Source of the DNA: Chloroflexota bacterium
GTDB taxonomy: Bacteria > Chloroflexota > Dormibacteria > Dormibacterales > Dormibacteraceae
Direction of reading: 5' to 3'
Assembly (NCBI GenBank): GCA_005880795.1
Contig: VBGP01000030.1
Coordinates: forward strand, 1 to 46,545
Length of the DNA: 46,545 nucleotides
Each line of letters opens with the position of its first letter. The stretch's first letter is position 1. Of the stretch, positions 2,352-24,725 are shown one piece after another. The position numbers and the translations under genes are program-made. The notes under the pieces were generated by a model. It made no database searches and was not told the origin of the DNA. It saw nothing but the letters and a program-made list of their open reading frames with translations.

Positions 2352-4019
2352 ATGCCTGAGACGAAACCGAAATCCCGTGCGCAGAGCTCGCGGCAAAGCT
2401 CGATCGGCTGGGGCGGCGCCGTCCTGTCGGGCCTTGCGCTGGTAACGGTCGCCGTCATGCTCGTGGTGCTCTTCGGCTTCCTCGACGCCCTGCATTTCGG
2501 CTCGATCGCCGACTTCTTCACGCCGGATTCGGCTGCCGCCGCGGGAACGCTCGGCCTGGTCGGGGGCGCCGAGGGCGTCACCCTGAGCATCGTCCTGCTG
2601 GGTGTCATGTTCGGGATCCAGACCTCTTCGTCGCGCTACTCGCCCCGAATCATCGGCATCTTCACGCGCAACCCGCTCAACGCCCTCGTCCTCAGCTTCG
2701 CCCTGGCCTCGATTCTCTACACCTTCCTCGTCCGCTCCGAGGTGAAGGTCAACTACGTACCCATGGCGAGCGTCGCCGTCGCCGAGGTGCTTGCACTCAT
2801 CAACTTCGCGCTTCTCTTTCCGTACGTCCTCTACACGTTCGAGGTCATGCGGGCCGAGACGCTTGTCTCCGGCATCATGCGGCGCGCGAGCAAAGAGCTG
2901 CGCGGTGGCACGCGCCGCCGGGAAAGCCTTCAGCACAGAAGCGCACTGCTGACGTGCTGCGCCCAGGTCTCAGACATCGCCTTCGGCTCCGTGGAGCTTG
3001 GCGACATGCCGGTTTGCCTGTTGTGCATCGAGGTCGTGGGTGACTTCCTCGCGAAGGAGTACCTCCCGGCGAAGAAGAACCTCGACCCGGAATGGCTGAA
3101 GGTCGGCCATGCCGAGCTTCCTGGCGCGTCAGACCAGATAGTCGCCGAGGTCAATCGTGCCGGCACCTGGTTCGCGTACATCGTGATGTCGAGTTTCGTC
3201 GACATGATCGGGCTGGCGCCGATCCATCGCAAAGAGGCCGTTCACGCGCTCGCCGTGGCGACGCGGAGAATCGGGTTGGCCGCGATCGAGGCCGGCGACT
3301 CGGAGGTCGCCGAGCTCTGTCTGCGCTTCTTCAACACATACCTGCGAGCCGCGATCAACCGCTCGGCGCCGACGTTTGCGTCGGTGATCATGAACGAGTA
3401 CCGGCGCTTTGCGATCGGGGCGCTCGAGTGGAGGCGCGACCTTGCGGTTGAGGCGGCCGCTCACCTGCTTCGCTACGGGCGACACTTCGACGAAGCGGGC
3501 ATGCCCGCCATCTTCGGCGCTGCTGCGGAGGACGTCGCCGACCTGGCCATTGAAGCCCGAGTCCGCGACCCGCAGGTGTCATTCCGCCTCGCGCAGCTGC
3601 TCGTCCGAAACCTTCTCGACCTGATCCCTGACGCGCGGCCCATTGGCCTCAACGGACTTTTCAAAGGCGTCGCGAAATTGACGTGCTGGGCGATGGCCTC
3701 CGACCAGAAAGACATCGCGCACGTCCTCGTCGAGGGGATTGCCGCGGCGCCCCCGGATTTCGTCGACGCCGCGCTTGGCCGGATGGAGGCGATGCAGAAC
3801 GGCCTGTTCTGGGAGGTCAACGAGCGCGTCATCTCGTTCGACTGGCTGGAGCAGCCGCTGCGCGAGCAGATTCCCGGACTGCGCGCGGCGCTGCGGCGGG
3901 CGAAGACGTCCGGCAATGGAGCGCTGCTCGACCTCGAGGACGCACCCGTGGTCGCCAAAGACCTGGTGCAGCCCGCGCCTGCTAGCGCGCCGCCGGCGAC
4001 TCCTCAGGTGGCTGGTTGA
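2352..4019 (+). CDS. DUF2254-like integral membrane protein
   Basis: A 555-residue protein with four predicted membrane segments in the first 165 residues (about 22-45, 73-93, 109-130 and 138-160) and a long soluble, helix-rich C-terminal part. Between TM2 and TM3 is SSSRYSPRIIGIFTRNPLN, which resembles the (S/F)SPR signature of DUF2254 membrane proteins. No catalytic residues can be assigned. The start is ATG 2352, preceded by GAAGG at 2341. It diverges from the HAD gene across 47 bp. Its last 38 bp overlap the end of the convergent haemoglobin gene. Function unknown. Confidence 0.75.
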   Translation: MPETKPKSRAQSSRQSSIGWGGAVLSGLALVTVAVMLVVLFGFLDALHFGSIADFFTPDSAAAAGTLGLVGGAEGVTLSIVLLGVMFGIQTSSSRYSPRIIGIFTRNPLNALVLSFALASILYTFLVRSEVKVNYVPMASVAVAEVLALINFALLFPYVLYTFEVMRAETLVSGIMRRASKELRGGTRRRESLQHRSALLTCCAQVSDIAFGSVELGDMPVCLLCIEVVGDFLAKEYLPAKKNLDPEWLKVGHAELPGASDQIVAEVNRAGTWFAYIVMSSFVDMIGLAPIHRKEAVHALAVATRRIGLAAIEAGDSEVAELCLRFFNTYLRAAINRSAPTFASVIMNEYRRFAIGALEWRRDLAVEAAAHLLRYGRHFDEAGMPAIFGAAAEDVADLAIEARVRDPQVSFRLAQLLVRNLLDLIPDARPIGLNGLFKGVAKLTCWAMASDQKDIAHVLVEGIAAAPPDFVDAALGRMEAMQNGLFWEVNERVISFDWLEQPLREQIPGLRAALRRAKTSGNGALLDLEDAPVVAKDLVQPAPASAPPATPQVAG

Positions 4020-4383
4020 TCATCGCCGAGGAAGCTGTCGCGAAGTAATCGAGCAGCGCCTTGCGCACAGGCAGCGCGAGGGCCAGCGATTCGACCGCCG
4101 CGGTCATGTGGCCGAGCCATGCATCGCGTTCGGCCTGGCCGATGGCAAAAGGCTGATGGCGCATGCGCAGACGCGGGTGGCCGCGCTGCTCGCTGTAAGT
4201 CGATGGGCCACCCCAGTACTGGATCAGAAAGAGGGTCAGGCGCTCAGTCGCCGGCGAGAGATCCGCTTCCGGATAGACGGCCCGCAGCAGGGGGTCACGC
4301 GCGACGCGGGCATAGAACCGCTGCACCAGCAGCCTGAACGCCGCCTCGCCGCCGGCAAGGTCGTAGACGCTCTTGTTGAGCAC
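3982..4383 (-). CDS. Group II truncated haemoglobin (TrHbO/GlbO type)
   Basis: A 133-residue haem protein. It shows the TrHbO pattern: a Phe-Tyr pair in helix B (RFYARVARDPLLRAVYPEAD), QYWGGPSTYSEQRGHP, RLRMRHQPF with the proximal His, and the ERDAWL segment with the Trp G8 typical of group II. Such proteins bind O2 and CO tightly and are linked to NO or peroxide detoxification and to electron transfer in redox stress. It starts at GTG 4383 and is convergent with, and overlaps by 38 bp, the DUF2254-like gene. It appears monocistronic. Confidence 0.93.
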   Translation of the reverse strand: MLNKSVYDLAGGEAAFRLLVQRFYARVARDPLLRAVYPEADLSPATERLTLFLIQYWGGPSTYSEQRGHPRLRMRHQPFAIGQAERDAWLGHMTAAVESLALALPVRKALLDYFATASSAMINQPPEESPAAR

Positions 4384-19331: not shown

Positions 19332-20342
19332 CTAGGCCTCCGTGCTGGGGCGGCGTCGCCTGACCAGGCCCGCGGCCACCGCCAGGGCGACCACCGCCCC
19401 CAGCGCGACGCGCTGAAAGATCGAGCGTCGCGGAGGTATTGGCGGCTGCACTTCGGCTTTTTTCTGCTCGATCGACTCGACCGGCCTTCGCTTCTCCCTC
19501 GACTCATCCATCGGGCTCGCGATCAGGCCCCGGGTTGCCGGCTCGCCCAGCCGGAACCGGTTGAAGACCGCCCCCAGCAGGATCAGCTGGCTGAGCAGGT
19601 AGAACCACGTGGCGAGCAGGAAGAACAGCGCGAACTGGGCGCCATAGGTGTTGAAGCTGCCCGCGATCCGGGCGTAAAGCGGAAAGGCGAGCGAAAGGAT
19701 CTCGATGAGCACTCCCGCCAGCAGCGCCCCCGGGATGACATCCCGCATGCGGAATGTCCGGTTCGGGACAAACCTGTAGAGGGCGACCAGCAGCGAAACC
19801 ATCACGACGGAGCCGATCACGAAGCTGATGACGGCCCCGACCATTGGGACCGGGACGAAGCTCGCGATGGCGTTGACGCCGACCGTCACCACGATCGCAA
19901 GCACGAGCAGGACCATCATGATCAGGCCCATCAACCGCTGGCGCAGCATGTCCCGCTGCCGCGTGCCGAAGATCTCAGTGAGCGAGAACTCCATGGTGGC
20001 GAAGATGCTGCTCGCACTCCACAGCAGGCCCCCGATGGAAACCAGCCCCAGCAAACCCGCGGACTCGCGAACCCCCTGCAGGGCCTTTTGTAGCTCAGGC
20101 TGGGCGCTGGTTGGAAATACCTGAATCACCAGGATCTGAAAGTGCATGTTCGTCGCCGGGTCGCGGATCGCGAGCCCGATGATGGCCAGGGCGCCGAGGA
20201 TCATCGGAAACATCGACATGAAGCCGGCGAAGGCAAGCGCCAGGGCGTAGTTGCTGGCCTGACTCTCGCCGTACGCGGTGAGGACACGCGCGGGCAGCGT
20301 CTTCTGCGCCCGCTCGGCGAGCGCCTGGACCCGAGCTTTCAA
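19332..20342 (-). CDS. YihY/BrkB family membrane protein
   Basis: A 336-residue protein with six predicted membrane segments, YihY-type: NYALALAFAGFMSMFP near the N-terminus, GLLGLVSIGGLLWSASSIFATME, RFVPNRTFRMRDVIPGALLAG, and SFNTYGAQFALFFLLATWFYLLSQLILLGA. The C-terminal 70 residues are basic, with a last hydrophobic stretch and RRRR. The role is unresolved; it is not RNase BN despite the old name. It starts at 20342, 11 nt after the DUF3618-like gene, and completes a three-gene membrane operon. Confidence 0.9.
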   Translation of the reverse strand: MKARVQALAERAQKTLPARVLTAYGESQASNYALALAFAGFMSMFPMILGALAIIGLAIRDPATNMHFQILVIQVFPTSAQPELQKALQGVRESAGLLGLVSIGGLLWSASSIFATMEFSLTEIFGTRQRDMLRQRLMGLIMMVLLVLAIVVTVGVNAIASFVPVPMVGAVISFVIGSVVMVSLLVALYRFVPNRTFRMRDVIPGALLAGVLIEILSLAFPLYARIAGSFNTYGAQFALFFLLATWFYLLSQLILLGAVFNRFRLGEPATRGLIASPMDESREKRRPVESIEQKKAEVQPPIPPRRSIFQRVALGAVVALAVAAGLVRRRRPSTEA

Positions 20343-20353
20343 TTCCGCGATGT

Positions 20354-20809
20354 TCAGTCCGCCTGTGGCGGCGAGTGTCGGAACTCCGTCTCGCCCGACG
20401 GCCGCGCGACCCTCTCGAGGAGCGCGGTCGATGCGGTGCCGGCGAGCGCGGGCGCGACCTTACGCAGGATGCTCTCGATCATCCCCGGCTCGCGCTCGGC
20501 CTTCTCGTTGACCGTGACGGTCACTGAAGGGAGCTCATCCTTCAGCCGGCCCGAAAGGTCTTCGGCGAGGGAGCGCAGCTTCACTACCGAAAGACCATCC
20601 AAGCGGTCTTTGAGAGTCGGCTTTCGCATCCGGCGATAGATGAAAATGGCCGCGGCCCCGGCGGCAAGGACACCGAGGCCGATCGCGGCAAGGCGGCCGA
20701 AGCGGGCGGCGCTGGAGGCGGCCCGGCCCTCGAGCTCGGTCAAGTTGTCATCCATCCGGTCGCGCGTCTCTTTTATCTGCCGTTCGATTTCACGCGCCGA
20801 AGCGCCCAT
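20354..20809 (-). CDS. DUF3618-like membrane protein
   Basis: A 151-residue protein starting at ATG 20809 (AAGGA upstream). The N-terminus (EIERQIKETRDRMDDNLTELEGR) is the DUF3618 signature helix, followed by a single membrane segment (about 38-56) and an amphipathic C-terminal part. Its start overlaps the holin-X-type gene by 37 nt. This gene order recurs in Actinomycetota and Chloroflexota; function unknown, probably envelope or stress related. Confidence 0.8.
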   Translation of the reverse strand: MGASAREIERQIKETRDRMDDNLTELEGRAASSAARFGRLAAIGLGVLAAGAAAIFIYRRMRKPTLKDRLDGLSVVKLRSLAEDLSGRLKDELPSVTVTVNEKAEREPGMIESILRKVAPALAGTASTALLERVARPSGETEFRHSPPQAD

Positions 20810-21186
20810 TCCTTGTTCTCCTTCAGGCTTTCGATCGTCCGCGGAGGCAGACGGAGCTGCAATCGGGATTTGCCGATGCTGACCAGGGCGAGGCCGACGA
20901 CCATGTACGCGGCCAGCCATACGGCCGCCGCCTGCCAGTGCCAGGGCACGAGGATCACCACTAGCGACGGCAAGACGACGAGCAACCCGAAAACGAGCAG
21001 CAGGCCACCGAATGCCATGAGCCCGGCGGCAATCGCGTTGCCGGTGGCGAGCTCTTTCAGCTCTTGCCGGGCAAGCGCGATCTCGAGTGATACCAGGCGC
21101 TGTGCGTCGCTGATCACCGAGGCGATCAAGCCGCGTGGCCTCACGCTCTGGTCGGTCGCGGTGGTTTCGACAGCGGGCGGTCGCAC
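20773..21186 (-). CDS. Holin-X-like (phage holin superfamily III) membrane protein
   Basis: A 137-residue protein with two membrane segments (about 54-77 and 86-105) and an N-terminal amphipathic helix (ISDAQRLVSLEIALARQELKELA), the layout of 'actinobacterial holin-X' proteins (PF07332). Despite the name these are chromosomal, and no phage genes are near. It starts at GTG 21186 and heads the operon holin-X, DUF3618, YihY. Confidence 0.8.
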   Translation of the reverse strand: MRPPAVETTATDQSVRPRGLIASVISDAQRLVSLEIALARQELKELATGNAIAAGLMAFGGLLLVFGLLVVLPSLVVILVPWHWQAAAVWLAAYMVVGLALVSIGKSRLQLRLPPRTIESLKENKEWALRRVKSNGR

Positions 21187-21251
21187 TCGTGCCTCACTGC
21201 TTGAACGCTCCGCGTATTGGCCTTACGCGCAGGCGTTGACTCTAAGTGGGA

Positions 21252-22223
21252 ATGAAGGTTGAGCTCGGCTACACGCTCTCGAGCGAGGAGCGCCAGCCGG
21301 AAGAGCTCGTGAGGCTCGCTCGGCTGGCCGAGGAAACGGGATTCACCTACGCTCTGGTGTCCGACCACTTCCATCCCTGGACCGACCGCCAGGGAAGCTC
21401 ACCGTTCGTATGGGCGGTCCTCGGAGGAATCGCGGCAACCACGAAGCGCCTCCGCGTCGGAACGGGCGTTACGTGCCCGATCATGCGCATCCATCCGGCG
21501 ATCATCGCCCAGGCCTCGGCCACGATCGGCTGCCTCATGCCGGGGCGCTTTTTCCTCGGCGTGGGTAGCGGCGAGAGCCTCAACGAGCATGTGACCGGCC
21601 AGGGCTGGCCGCCGCCGGACATGCGCCAGGACATGCTCGAGGAGGCGGTCGAGATCCTGCGCAACCTTCACCGAGGCGGCGAGCGAAGCCACGACGGAAA
21701 GTTCTTCCAGGTCCACGACGCCCGCCTCTACAACCTGCCGGAAGAGCCTGTGCCTATCTACATCGCCGCAGCGGGCCAGCAGGCGGCCAAGCTGGCGGCG
21801 CGGGTCGGCGACGGTCTCATCTGCTCCGCTCCCTCCGCCGAAAGCGTCGCGGCGTTCGACGCCGGAGGAGGCGCCGGAAAACCTCGCTACGGCCAGCTGA
21901 CGGTGTGCTGGGCGAAGACTGAAGAGGACGGTGTCCGCACCGCGCATGAGTACTGGCCCATCTCGGGTTTGAGCGGACAGTTCAAGAATGAGCTAGCGCG
22001 CCCGGCGTACCTGATGCAGGCGTCGGAGCTGGTGACCCCAGAGATCGTGAAGAAAGAGATCGTCTGTGGCCCTGACCCCGAGCGCCACCTCCAAGGGATC
22101 GCAAAGTTCGTCAAGGCGGGGTTCGACCACGTGTATGTGCACCAGGTTGGCCCGGACCAGGAAGGCTTCATGCGCTTCTACGAACAGGAGATCTTTCCTC
22201 AGGCGGGCGCGATCGCGGCTTAA
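21252..22223 (+). CDS. LLM-class oxidoreductase, F420-dependent type (TIGR03557-like)
   Basis: A 323-residue luciferase-like TIM-barrel enzyme. It matches the F420-binding glucose-6-phosphate dehydrogenase-like group: [67 protein letters not shown] and [19 protein letters not shown]. The cofactor is assigned by family, not shown by the sequence alone. GTG 21246 is an alternative start two codons earlier. Its TAA shares bases with the stop of the convergent transporter gene (TTAA at 22220-22223). Substrate unknown. Confidence 0.88.
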
Positions 22224-23518
22224 CCCGGCAGCCCGTTGGTCGCGACCTGGTAGACCAGTGCCACGTCGGCCAGGACCATGACGCCGGCGGCCCCCCACCC
22301 GACAACCTTGGTCGCCATTCCGTTCACGAAATCGCCCATCACCTTGCGGCTGGAGGTGATCAGCAGCATCAGGACGATCAGGAAGGGGGCGATCAAGCCG
22401 TCGAGGACCTGCGAGTAGAAGAGCGCTTTGATTGGGTCGATCGATGAAATCGCGAGCTCCATCGCGACGAGGAAAGCGAGTCCGATCACGAGATAGAACT
22501 GCGGCGCGTTGCGAGCTTTTCGGCCGAGGCCGCGCCGCCATCCGGCCAGGCCCGCGACGCCGAATGCAGCCGAGGCGGCGAGAATCGGAATCGCGAGCAG
22601 ACCTGCGCCGATGATTCCCACCGCAAACAGAGCCGTCGCGTAGTGGCCGGCGAACGGCTCGAGTGCGCGAGCAGCGTCCGCCGCCGTTCTGATCTGAGCG
22701 TGATGTGAGAACAGGACCGCGCCCGTGGCGACGATGATGAAGAAAGCCGTCACGTTCGACCACACCATTCCGATCGTGATGTCGAGGTTCGAACGGCTCA
22801 AGCGCTGGACGCCGCGCTTCTCCTCCACCTCACCGCTCGTCTGCCAGAAAAAAAGGTACGGCGTGATCGTTGTGCCCAGCATGCCGACCGACGCAAGGAG
22901 AAAGCCCGCGTTGAGCTCCACGTGCGGGACGACCGTGCTGCGCAGCACATCCGACCAGTTGGGCCGCGCGAGAAAGGCGGCGAGGATGTAAGTGGCGAAA
23001 ACCGCGACCAGCCACAGCATGTATCTGCTGATCACGCGGTAATCGAGAAAGATCGTGAAGCAGGCCATCGCGGCGGCGAGCGGAACGATCCAGTAGATGA
23101 ACCTGATCCCCGTGAGCAGCTGGATCGCTGCCCCCATCGCGATCAGGTCCGCACCCATAGTGATCACATTTGCGATCACCATCAGCAGCACCGCCGGTGT
23201 CGCGACCCGGGCGCTATAGGTGGTGCGAAGAACGGTGGCGAGGTCCGTCTTCGTCACATGGGCGACCTTGGCCGACATCTGCATGACCACGATCAACAGC
23301 GGGGTGGACAGAAACAGGAGCCAGTTCTGGGCGAAACCGGCTGTTGCGCCGACGATCGAATAGGTCGCAATCCCCGCCGGGTCGTTGTCTGCCCCGCCGG
23401 TGATGACTCCCGGACCGATGCTCTTCAGGATGTCGACGGGCGAGAGGCGCTCCTTGACCGCCTCGCGCGCGGAGGGAGCTTGCGGCTTGCGGGCCGTGCG
23501 CCTCCCTACCTCTGCCAT
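22220..23518 (-). CDS. Nramp-related metal transporter, NRMT-like (predicted Mg2+/Mn2+)
   Basis: A 432-residue, 11-segment SLC11/Nramp-family transporter. Classical Nramps bind Mn/Fe with Asp-Pro-Gly-Asn in TM1 and a Met in TM6. Here TM1 reads [14 protein letters not shown] (Asp46-Pro-Ala-Gly49, so Asn is Gly) and TM6 reads [11 protein letters not shown], with Thr where the Met would be. These two changes are those described for Nramp-related magnesium transporters. It is therefore more likely an Mg2+ (or Mn2+) carrier than a classic MntH. Its N-terminus overlaps the preceding gene's end by 13 nt. Confidence 0.82.
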
Positions 23519-24111
23519 CTACTTGCACCGATCACGCTGGGCGGCGTGGCGATCGTCCAGCTGCTCCTGGTGTCCTCTTCGAGGATCTCGCGCACGAGGA
23601 ATACGTCTGTCTCATCGACCCTCATCACCAGCAACGCGTCCCCGTTCTCGACGCGTCGTCGAGCGTCTTCGACAAACTCTTCCAGAAGCAACTTGCGCAG
23701 GTCGCCCGCGTTGCGACGATCGACGATCGCCTGCTGGTACGGAGTGACACGGCTTCGCTCGAGGACGAACTTGCACGCGAGCTCAGCTGTCTCGCGGTCG
23801 GGAAACGCGGCGATCAGCGTCTGGTCGAGCAAACCGGGGGTTTCATGACGATCGGCAACCTTGAGGTGAGACGTGTCCAGCTCCTTGATGCCACGCCCGA
23901 TGCGCGCGCGCGCCTGTTTCACGAGCTCGTCGCGGTCATCGCTCCGATCCAGCTGCCCCGAGATCACGAGGCGCTCGCCGGCCACGCGCACCGAAACCCG
24001 GTCGCCGAGGACGGGATGCGGCTCGCCGGTTTCTCCCGCCAGCACGGCATTCCACCAGTGCGCGATCCCTGAGCCATCCCCTTCCCGAGGGGGCGCTTTG
24101 CTGCGCCTCAT
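23506..24111 (-). CDS. Hypothetical protein with BON-like N-terminal segment
   Basis: A 201-residue soluble protein. Residues 35-75 ([40 protein letters not shown]) look like a BON-type alpha/beta unit; the rest contains [18 protein letters not shown] and a long helix. I do not recognise the whole. It is the first gene of a two-gene operon with the Nramp-related transporter, whose start it overlaps by 13 nt, so a role in metal homeostasis is possible but unproven. Confidence 0.65.
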
Positions 24112-24161: not shown

Positions 24162-24725
24162 ATGCAGATGCACACACCGCAGATCGAGCCACCGCGGATC
24201 CTGCCCGAAAGCGTCGACCGGCGGCTGTACTTGATGATCCATGGCCTCCCCCATTCGCCTGTCGGAGACCGCTACGTGACGCTGCTCTCCGACCTGGGCG
24301 AGGGACTTGGGTGGGTGGGCGCGGGCGTCGCGCTGGCCTGGCTTGGGGGATCTCGCGGCCGGCGGGCGGGTCTCGCCACCGCGATCGCCTCGTTGGGCAC
24401 GACCTATCTCGTCCAGCGGATCGTGAAGCCGGTCTTCAAGCGCCACCGTCCACACGTCGGGCGCGATGTCCTGGTCGTCGGCATCCGCACGACCGACGCG
24501 TCGTTTCCTTCCGGCCACTCCGCGTCGTCGTTCGCGGCAGCCACCGCGCTGACGGCCTTCTATCCCAAGTCCGGTCCTCTTGTCTTCACGCTCGCGACCG
24601 GCATCGGCGCATCGAGGGTGCATCTCGGGCACCACTTTCCGAGCGATGTCGCGGTAGGGGCGCTGATTGGAGTCGCCACGGGCGCCTTCATCGCGTGGCT
24701 GATCAAGGTCCCCAAAGCCCTCTAG
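24162..24725 (+). CDS. PAP2-family membrane phosphatase
   Basis: A 187-residue protein with the three PAP2 motifs in order: KPVFKRHRP (motif 1), FPSGHS (motif 2, with the catalytic His) and ASRVHLGHHFPSD (motif 3). Membrane segments flank them. Such enzymes dephosphorylate lipid phosphates such as phosphatidic acid or undecaprenyl diphosphate. It starts at ATG 24162 or Met3. Divergent from the BON-like gene. Confidence 0.9.
   Translation: MQMHTPQIEPPRILPESVDRRLYLMIHGLPHSPVGDRYVTLLSDLGEGLGWVGAGVALAWLGGSRGRRAGLATAIASLGTTYLVQRIVKPVFKRHRPHVGRDVLVVGIRTTDASFPSGHSASSFAAATALTAFYPKSGPLVFTLATGIGASRVHLGHHFPSDVAVGALIGVATGAFIAWLIKVPKAL

Follow-up and report, generated by a model that had tools for sequence, protein, structure and literature searches.

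A divergent Nramp-related transporter with a predicted Mg-permissive site and an adjoining BON-like companion protein in Dormibacterota

Canonical Nramps are described as carrying the paired motif DxxN-A/CxxM at the metal site, in place of which the Nramp-related Mg2+ transporters (NRMTs) have DxxG-TxxA/T (Ramanadane et al., 2022, PMC8806188). By the same account EleNRMT carries Mg2+ and Mn2+ without protons and excludes Ca2+. The canonical EcoDMT given the NRMT site residues is reported there to have kept Mn2+ transport and to have shown no transport of Mg2+, and the NRMT motif is therefore not sufficient. Shin et al. (2014, PMC4072509) treat the M-box as a useful sign of Mg2+ cargo and list some NrmT genes without one. 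Among the proteins they describe is an NrmT-group member from Acidobacterium capsulatum, lacking an M-box and encoded beside an MgtE-like gene, which is mainly a Mn2+ carrier, rescuing fully with Mn2+ and with Mg2+ only at low millimolar concentration. Two other Nramp-related proteins, YcsG/MntG (PMC10448178) and MumT (PMC5050338), are reported to act in Mn2+ uptake, and Nramp-related groups other than those of EleNRMT and MntG are described as uncharacterised by Ray et al. (2026, PMC12873925). A mutational scan of DraNramp (2026, PMC13060092), from a library skewed to residues of natural relatives, names Y54, A85, M230, H232 and L381 as the core anti-Mg2+ positions, and gives as Mg-permissive the changes Y54D with N275A, M230 to A, S, T, G or C, and H232Y with L381 or C382 changed.

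The gene considered here lies in a 46,545-nucleotide contig, the whole of which is called the window (VBGP01000030.1, assembly GCA_005880795.1), from a draft Chloroflexota genome of 217 contigs and 3.2 Mb; its nearest named relatives are soil Chloroflexi/Ca. Dormibacterota MAGs. An earlier sequence-only reading, which gave no strand, had proposed that the product is probably a magnesium carrier. The reading frame is on the minus strand (Table 1), and its product matches the Pfam Nramp family (PF01566, E = 1.8e-79). Against its 87%-identical ortholog (L034) pN/pS is 0.18, and against a 75%-identical one (L040) it is 0.27; in the AlphaFold model (mean pLDDT 86.2, from a 30-row alignment) TM1 and TM6 are broken at the site residues. 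The low pN/pS and the position of these helix breaks together indicate that this is not a chance ORF. Two orthologs have altered frames, through either decay or assembly error: that of genome G007 (L045) is divided into two ORFs of 97 and 323 aa, and that of G017 (L047) lacks about 30 residues past TTITPYLFF.

Table 1. Features of the transporter locus, numbered along the window
Feature	Position	Strand	Basis or remark
Nramp-related (PF01566) class II transporter, 432 aa	22220..23518	minus	open ORF, Pfam, tree, fold
TM1 unwound segment D44-N-D46-P-A-G49, predicted metal site	23372..23389	minus	DNDPAG, residues 44-49
TM6 unwound segment T216-T-I-T219-P-Y221, predicted metal site	22856..22873	minus	TTITPY, residues 216-221
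TM3 Asp124	23147..23149	minus	position of DraNramp E134 / EleNRMT Glu
Companion, 201 aa, BON-like N-terminal part and ferredoxin-like C-terminal domain	23506..24111	minus	ORF overlaps transporter start by 13 nt
PAP2 phosphatase	24162..24725	plus	conserved upstream flank of the slot, outside the pair
Luciferase-like monooxygenase	21246..22223	plus	convergent neighbour, varies among congeners
BrkB-family (19332-20342), DUF3618-like (20354-20920) and Holin-X-family (20773-21186) genes	19332..21186	minus	conserved downstream flank

By sequence and by fold, EleNRMT proved to be the closest solved structure. It is the top Foldseek match of the model (E = 1e-22, TMt 0.88), it gives a VIA Z of 48.5 where the next Nramp gives 45.9, and it is the best phmmer match among solved structures (252 bits, E = 1e-73; next, 1.7e-25). 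None of the three NCBIfam matches of the protein reaches its threshold: MntH scores 118 of 430 bits, nramp 61.5 of 272.5 and Nramp_1 45.2 of 50. The forecast that automatic annotation would call it a Mn/Fe transporter was partly right: among 40 plasmid records listed of 155 matching, 27 read “divalent metal (cation) transporter”, one “natural resistance-associated macrophage protein”, 12 have no label, and Mn or Fe is named in none.

Similar comparisons can be carried down to single residues. In wider context the two unwound segments read G-A-D44-N-D46-P-A-G49 and G-T216-T-I-T219-P-Y221, and alignment with DraNramp pairs D56 with D46, N59 with G49, M230 with T219 and H232 with Y221. The earlier observations that TM1 has DPAG in place of DPGN, and that the TTITP of TM6 lacks the selectivity Met, are thus borne out, as is the remark that these are the substitutions reported for NRMTs (PMC8806188): D46-P-A-G49 and T216-T-I-T219 correspond to DxxG-TxxA/T, and G49, T216 and T219 all depart from the Slc11/MntH motif. 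The absence of H+-coupling residues on TM3 and TM9, also characteristic of NRMTs, is shared by the window protein, in which the proton-path positions D131, E124, R352 and R353 of DraNramp are occupied by M121, V114, V344 and I345. On this alignment, Thr, Gly and Tyr take the places of the canonical Met thioether, TM1 Asn and TM6 His, the Y54 position is occupied by an Asp, and the predicted proton path is gone.

At the positions of DraNramp Y54, N275, M230, H232, L381 and C382, the window protein has D44, A258, T219, Y221, D373 and G374 (in EleNRMT, G, A, A, W, N and G). A85 corresponds to L75, with Leu also in EleNRMT, and is the sole core position at which the residue is not among the Mg gains reported (PMC13060092). 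Identity to DraNramp is 22%, and the columns of A85, N275 and L381 (TM2, TM7 and TM10) are less sure than those of TM1 and TM6. Read against the DraNramp scan, the predicted metal site is Mg-permissive.

Two classes of Nramp-related protein, given the labels I and II in this analysis, can be told apart by their motifs: class I has NDxGG in TM1 and a TM3 Glu, and class II has [DN]DPxG, a TM3 Asp and TTI[TS]PYLFFWQ. In a careful tree of 64 rows, the clade of canonical Nramps, supported at 100/100, leaves out the window protein, which, as had been anticipated, lies outside the classical MntH group. Class I (97/95, 20 rows) includes EleNRMT, all seven M-box-linked proteins described below and a paralog encoded on contig C116 of the window genome, and class II (100/100, 40 rows) has the window protein inside it. 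A quick tree of 97 rows again places the canonical Nramps apart and recovers class II (64 rows, support 99), with class I in two groups. An AU test rejects a group of the window clade with EleNRMT and six M-box proteins (p = 1.5e-29), under a constraint that also splits class II. The trees, which took in no CabNRMT, Acp2977 or YcsG sequences, are best explained if class II is the sister of the EleNRMT/M-box branch. Membership of the MntH clade is ruled out by the tree and the site residues. A place inside the EleNRMT/M-box clade is unsupported by the careful tree, despite high raw similarity to EleNRMT; this similarity is a point against separating the two classes, the C116 class I paralog scoring 199 bits to EleNRMT by phmmer, below the window protein, and the rank of EleNRMT as top fold match is another. 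Overall, the best explanation is that the transporter imports divalent cations, has the LeuT fold and is related to Nramps, in a branch other than that of the canonical Mn/Fe members.

Class II extends over several bacterial phyla and archaeal MAGs, and no member with a measured transport substrate was met in the literature found, in which subscription journals are thinly covered. Residues were counted after 11 of 147 rows, divergent or broken, had been set aside. All 105 class II rows have Asp at the Y54 position, Gly at the N59 position and the metal-binding Asp of TM1, and all but four have Asp at the TM3 position (101/105); the 26 class I rows all have Glu there. The M230 position is Thr or Ser in 104 of the 105; Thr at this site is over-represented because 64 of the rows came from a search with the patterns TTITPYLF and I[TS]GGADND.

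The regulatory evidence for Mg2+ falls on class I. An M-box search of 47 genomes found five positive, with seven copies (L134-L140; judged by these loci, the five belong to Eremiobacterota and relatives). Every copy lies upstream of a PF01566 gene, on the same strand, and all seven of these genes are class I; a PRC-MgtE_N-CBS gene intervenes in four. The five genomes hold 21 PF01566 genes, namely eight of class I (seven with M-box), ten of class II (none) and three others (none), and the difference between 7/8 and 0/10 gives a Fisher p of 2.5e-4 with kinship ignored. M-boxes were absent from all 14 Dormibacterota genomes searched, and neither the window nor ten ortholog loci gave an Rfam match. 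Two further PF01566 genes are present in the window genome. One, on C196, is a canonical MntH (DPGN, MPH); the other, on C116 (L003, 1135-2781), encodes the 548-aa class I paralog, with NDAGG and TTVAPW, and comes directly after an MgtE_N-CBS gene (2788-4029). For Mg2+-linked transport, the C116 gene is a stronger candidate than the one in the window. A class I gene with MgtE_N-CBS also occurs on the conjugative Citrobacter freundii plasmid pPSV (L187), in the company of an ArsR-type regulator, a heavy-metal P-type ATPase and a Tn3 transposase.

Other routes for Mg2+ were compared in the same way. The window genome has one CorA, and an MgtE membrane domain was not found in it. Across 192 Patescibacteria genomes, all draft genomes and compared by statistics that ignore kinship, relatives of the window protein were detected in 15 of the 69 that have CorA and in 57 of the 123 that lack it (Fisher p = 0.001; 0.011 for matches of E<=1e-60 only), and in 19 of 77 with CorA or MgtE as against 53 of 115 with neither (p = 0.004). 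This anti-correlation, in a modest table, weakly favours a role in common with CorA. In 62 of the 192, no CorA, MgtE membrane domain or window-protein relative was detectable. Among 21 other class II-bearing genomes, ten have CorA, two MgtE and nine neither; the count of ten is uninformative by itself because 122 of the 192 Patescibacteria lack CorA anyway.

With these comparisons in hand, the reading preferred here, by a little over an even chance, is that the protein is a proton-uncoupled importer that would take both Mg2+ and Mn2+. The site would be wider and all-oxygen and would suit a hard cation that keeps part of its water (Mg2+, with Mn2+ too, as in EleNRMT); the membrane potential would drive its movement, uncoupled from protons. 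Since envelope and stress-type genes cluster around them, the transporter and its companion may adjust divalent cations under stress. Against such an importer, the M-box never marks class II in the 47 genomes, and the altered EcoDMT is reported without Mg2+ transport (PMC8806188).

That the protein is instead a Mn2+ importer in vivo, tolerating loss of the Met ligand and serving the stress-linked cluster, seems rather unlikely. It would accord with the EcoDMT M235A and triple mutants, reported still to carry Mn2+ (PMC8806188), with the preference of the A. capsulatum protein (PMC4072509), with the Mn2+ uptake ascribed to YcsG/MntG and MumT, and with the stress-type genes near class II genes at four of eight annotated plasmid loci. 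It is opposed, however, by the canonical MntH already encoded on C196 and by the Rfam search of the window and ten ortholog loci, which returned no Mn-responsive element; moreover, the pxp-linked, MntG-like protein L205 resembles class II so little (18% identity, and the TM1 Asp is missing) that MntG says little about this class.

That the protein is dedicated to Mg2+ import and works as an NRMT is improbable. The NRMT motif, the closeness of EleNRMT by sequence and fold, the raw phmmer score that exceeds the class I paralog's, the Mg-permissive residues at most core positions and the CorA anti-correlation in Patescibacteria would all suit it, but the protein belongs to a branch separate from EleNRMT and every M-box-linked gene, the M-box contrast between the classes runs the other way, and the genome already has CorA and a class I paralog. 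These points, with the absence of an M-box and the precedents of EcoDMT (PMC8806188) and the A. capsulatum protein (PMC4072509), make “probably a magnesium carrier” too strong a description; judged from its sequence, Mg2+ transport by the window protein is possible. Another cargo, whether Ca2+, Co2+/Ni2+ or, as for other members of the LeuT-fold superfamily, a solute that is not a metal, is very hard to credit: EcoDMT without the Met is reported to admit Ca2+, and Asp at both the Y54 and E134 positions in nearly all class II rows makes an unusually acidic site, yet Ca2+ is excluded by EleNRMT, whose site is similar (PMC8806188), and the metal-binding Asp of TM1 is invariant.

Where the selectivity Met is missing, the protein is often taken for a “Mg transporter”. 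The Met-less motif is common to two branches and the Mg2+ regulatory evidence belongs to one only, so that the motif alone is insufficient for annotating cargo. More interesting than the cargo claim are the pairing of the window-type transporter with its companion and the exchange of transporters in place.

At all 14 ortholog loci the companion adjoins the transporter. Among 61 whole genomes it is found in 15, exactly those with a window-type transporter and always adjacent to it, and in none of the other 46. Of 80 loci from the pattern-based search, overlapping in part with the 14, it occurs in 18, all of them loci at least 48% identical (trees and alignments); it was found in none of the other 62 at E<=1, and three matches with filters off (E 0.32-0.67) were taken as noise. 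Its pN/pS of 0.37 and 0.45 indicates purifying selection, weaker than that on the transporter. The model (mean pLDDT 89.0, pTM 0.70, built without the first Met) comprises an alpha-beta-beta-alpha-beta part and a ferredoxin-like domain. For the former, the matches are weak: Pfam BON is matched by 6 of 15 members (best E 0.0027), and OsmY by profile at E 0.026 and by fold at E 4e-3. CutA1 and PII lead the fold list of the ferredoxin-like domain at Z 8-9, not clear of unrelated rows; CutA1 itself is matched by Foldseek at E 1.2e-3 and by VIA at Z 8.9 (rmsd 3.2, 87 aligned), and unrelated rows score equally. The companion is not described in the literature found, again with thin coverage of subscription journals.

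The idea that class II transporters generally have a BON companion was considered and rejected: 20 upstream ORFs at other class II loci, some of them doubtful, gave no BON match at E 0.01. The exception is a plasmid of Rhizobium sp. CB3090 (L198, 4276-6281), where the gene immediately upstream of a class II gene codes for a CBS-CBS-BON protein (BON, 35.1 of 27 bits), an independent case of a BON neighbour. When small upstream proteins from Patescibacteria were searched with the companion profile, nothing scored better than E 0.013.

Of the 17 genomes in the window's genus, 11 carry the BON-paired transporter and six a different class II transporter, with none having both (E<=1e-70) and none neither (p = 8e-5). 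The alternative type (about 40% identity, open frames of 455-545 aa, DPSG/TTIS) occupies the same slot, from PAP2 to holin-DUF3618-BrkB, in all six congeners (L051, L209-L213), and the companion is absent genome-wide from all six. At three loci from other genera, two of them short stretches, the slot neighbours are absent. From this in-place exchange, the two subtypes seem exchangeable and the companion tied to one. The exact co-occurrence and adjacency of companion and window-type transporter, and the replacement in the slot among congeners, are new here, and a natural subtype swap at one locus offers a ready comparison for metal choice and for the companion's role. The stress-type neighbours of plasmid class II genes include Hsp20; universal stress proteins; catalase, trehalose and BrkB; and DUF3618/holin (L182, L184, L201 and L202). 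Such neighbours also occur at L186, a member of another group, and the window likewise has BrkB, DUF3618, Holin-X and PAP2.

From its genomic link with the transporter, the companion may regulate it. Conceivably, this cytosolic BON/ferredoxin-like protein, encoded just upstream in overlapping or abutting frames, could bind the transporter and adjust its activity, much as the PRC-MgtE_N-CBS protein possibly does for class I; that another class II type occupies the same slot without a companion counts against the link. GlnK, with AmtB, and SbtB, with SbtA, are PII-type regulators of transporters. By analogy, class II might be a functionally distinct branch of hydrated-divalent-cation carriers, and its BON-paired clade a transporter-regulator unit in which the companion would sense a metal or nucleotide in the cytosol and gate the carrier as PII gates AmtB, a proposal that we consider quite doubtful. 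If true, the SLC11 fold would have in the companion its first regulator of this kind beyond the MgtE_N-linked branch.

The window protein shares with MntG/YcsG and MumT an Nramp-related character and a place outside the canonical clade. It differs from the MntG type as represented by the pxp-linked plasmid protein L205, which lacks the TM1 Asp and has GGTVGGY in TM6; L205 is equated with YcsG from its operon, because phmmer of L205 against the PDB gave nothing at E 0.01. The window protein was rejected as an MntG/YcsG, with 18.4% identity to L205 and no pxp or urea-carboxylase neighbour in the flanks read. Nramp genes were absent beside PxpA in ten Dormibacterota loci, and five other pxpA regions have no Nramp annotation, including the unannotated L208, which has no tblastn match to L205.

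Like the PRC-MgtE_N-CBS proteins of class I, the companion is soluble and its gene immediately precedes that of an Nramp-related transporter, but the two have no domain in common, CBS and MgtE_N standing against BON-like and ferredoxin-like parts. Like GlnK and SbtB, it is a small ferredoxin-like-domain protein encoded with a transporter; the resemblance is by fold only, as there is no sequence family match, and the companion has an extra BON-like part. With canonical MntH/Nramp proteins (DraNramp, BfraNramp, C196), the transporter shares the overall fold and the TM1 Asp, whereas identity is 21-24% and the site Asn, Met and His and most proton-path residues are replaced. Unlike EleNRMT, it keeps the TM1 Pro (DPAG, against DAGG), has Asp where EleNRMT has Glu in TM3 and Gly at the Y54 position, reads TPYLFFWQ in place of APWMMFF, and belongs to a separate branch, with no M-box and no MgtE_N partner. 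Like EleNRMT and the NRMTs generally (Ramanadane et al., 2022; Shin et al., 2014), it combines the PF01566 fold and a DxxG-TxxA/T site with the loss of proton-path residues, and EleNRMT, at 34.6% identity over 407 columns, is its best structure match.
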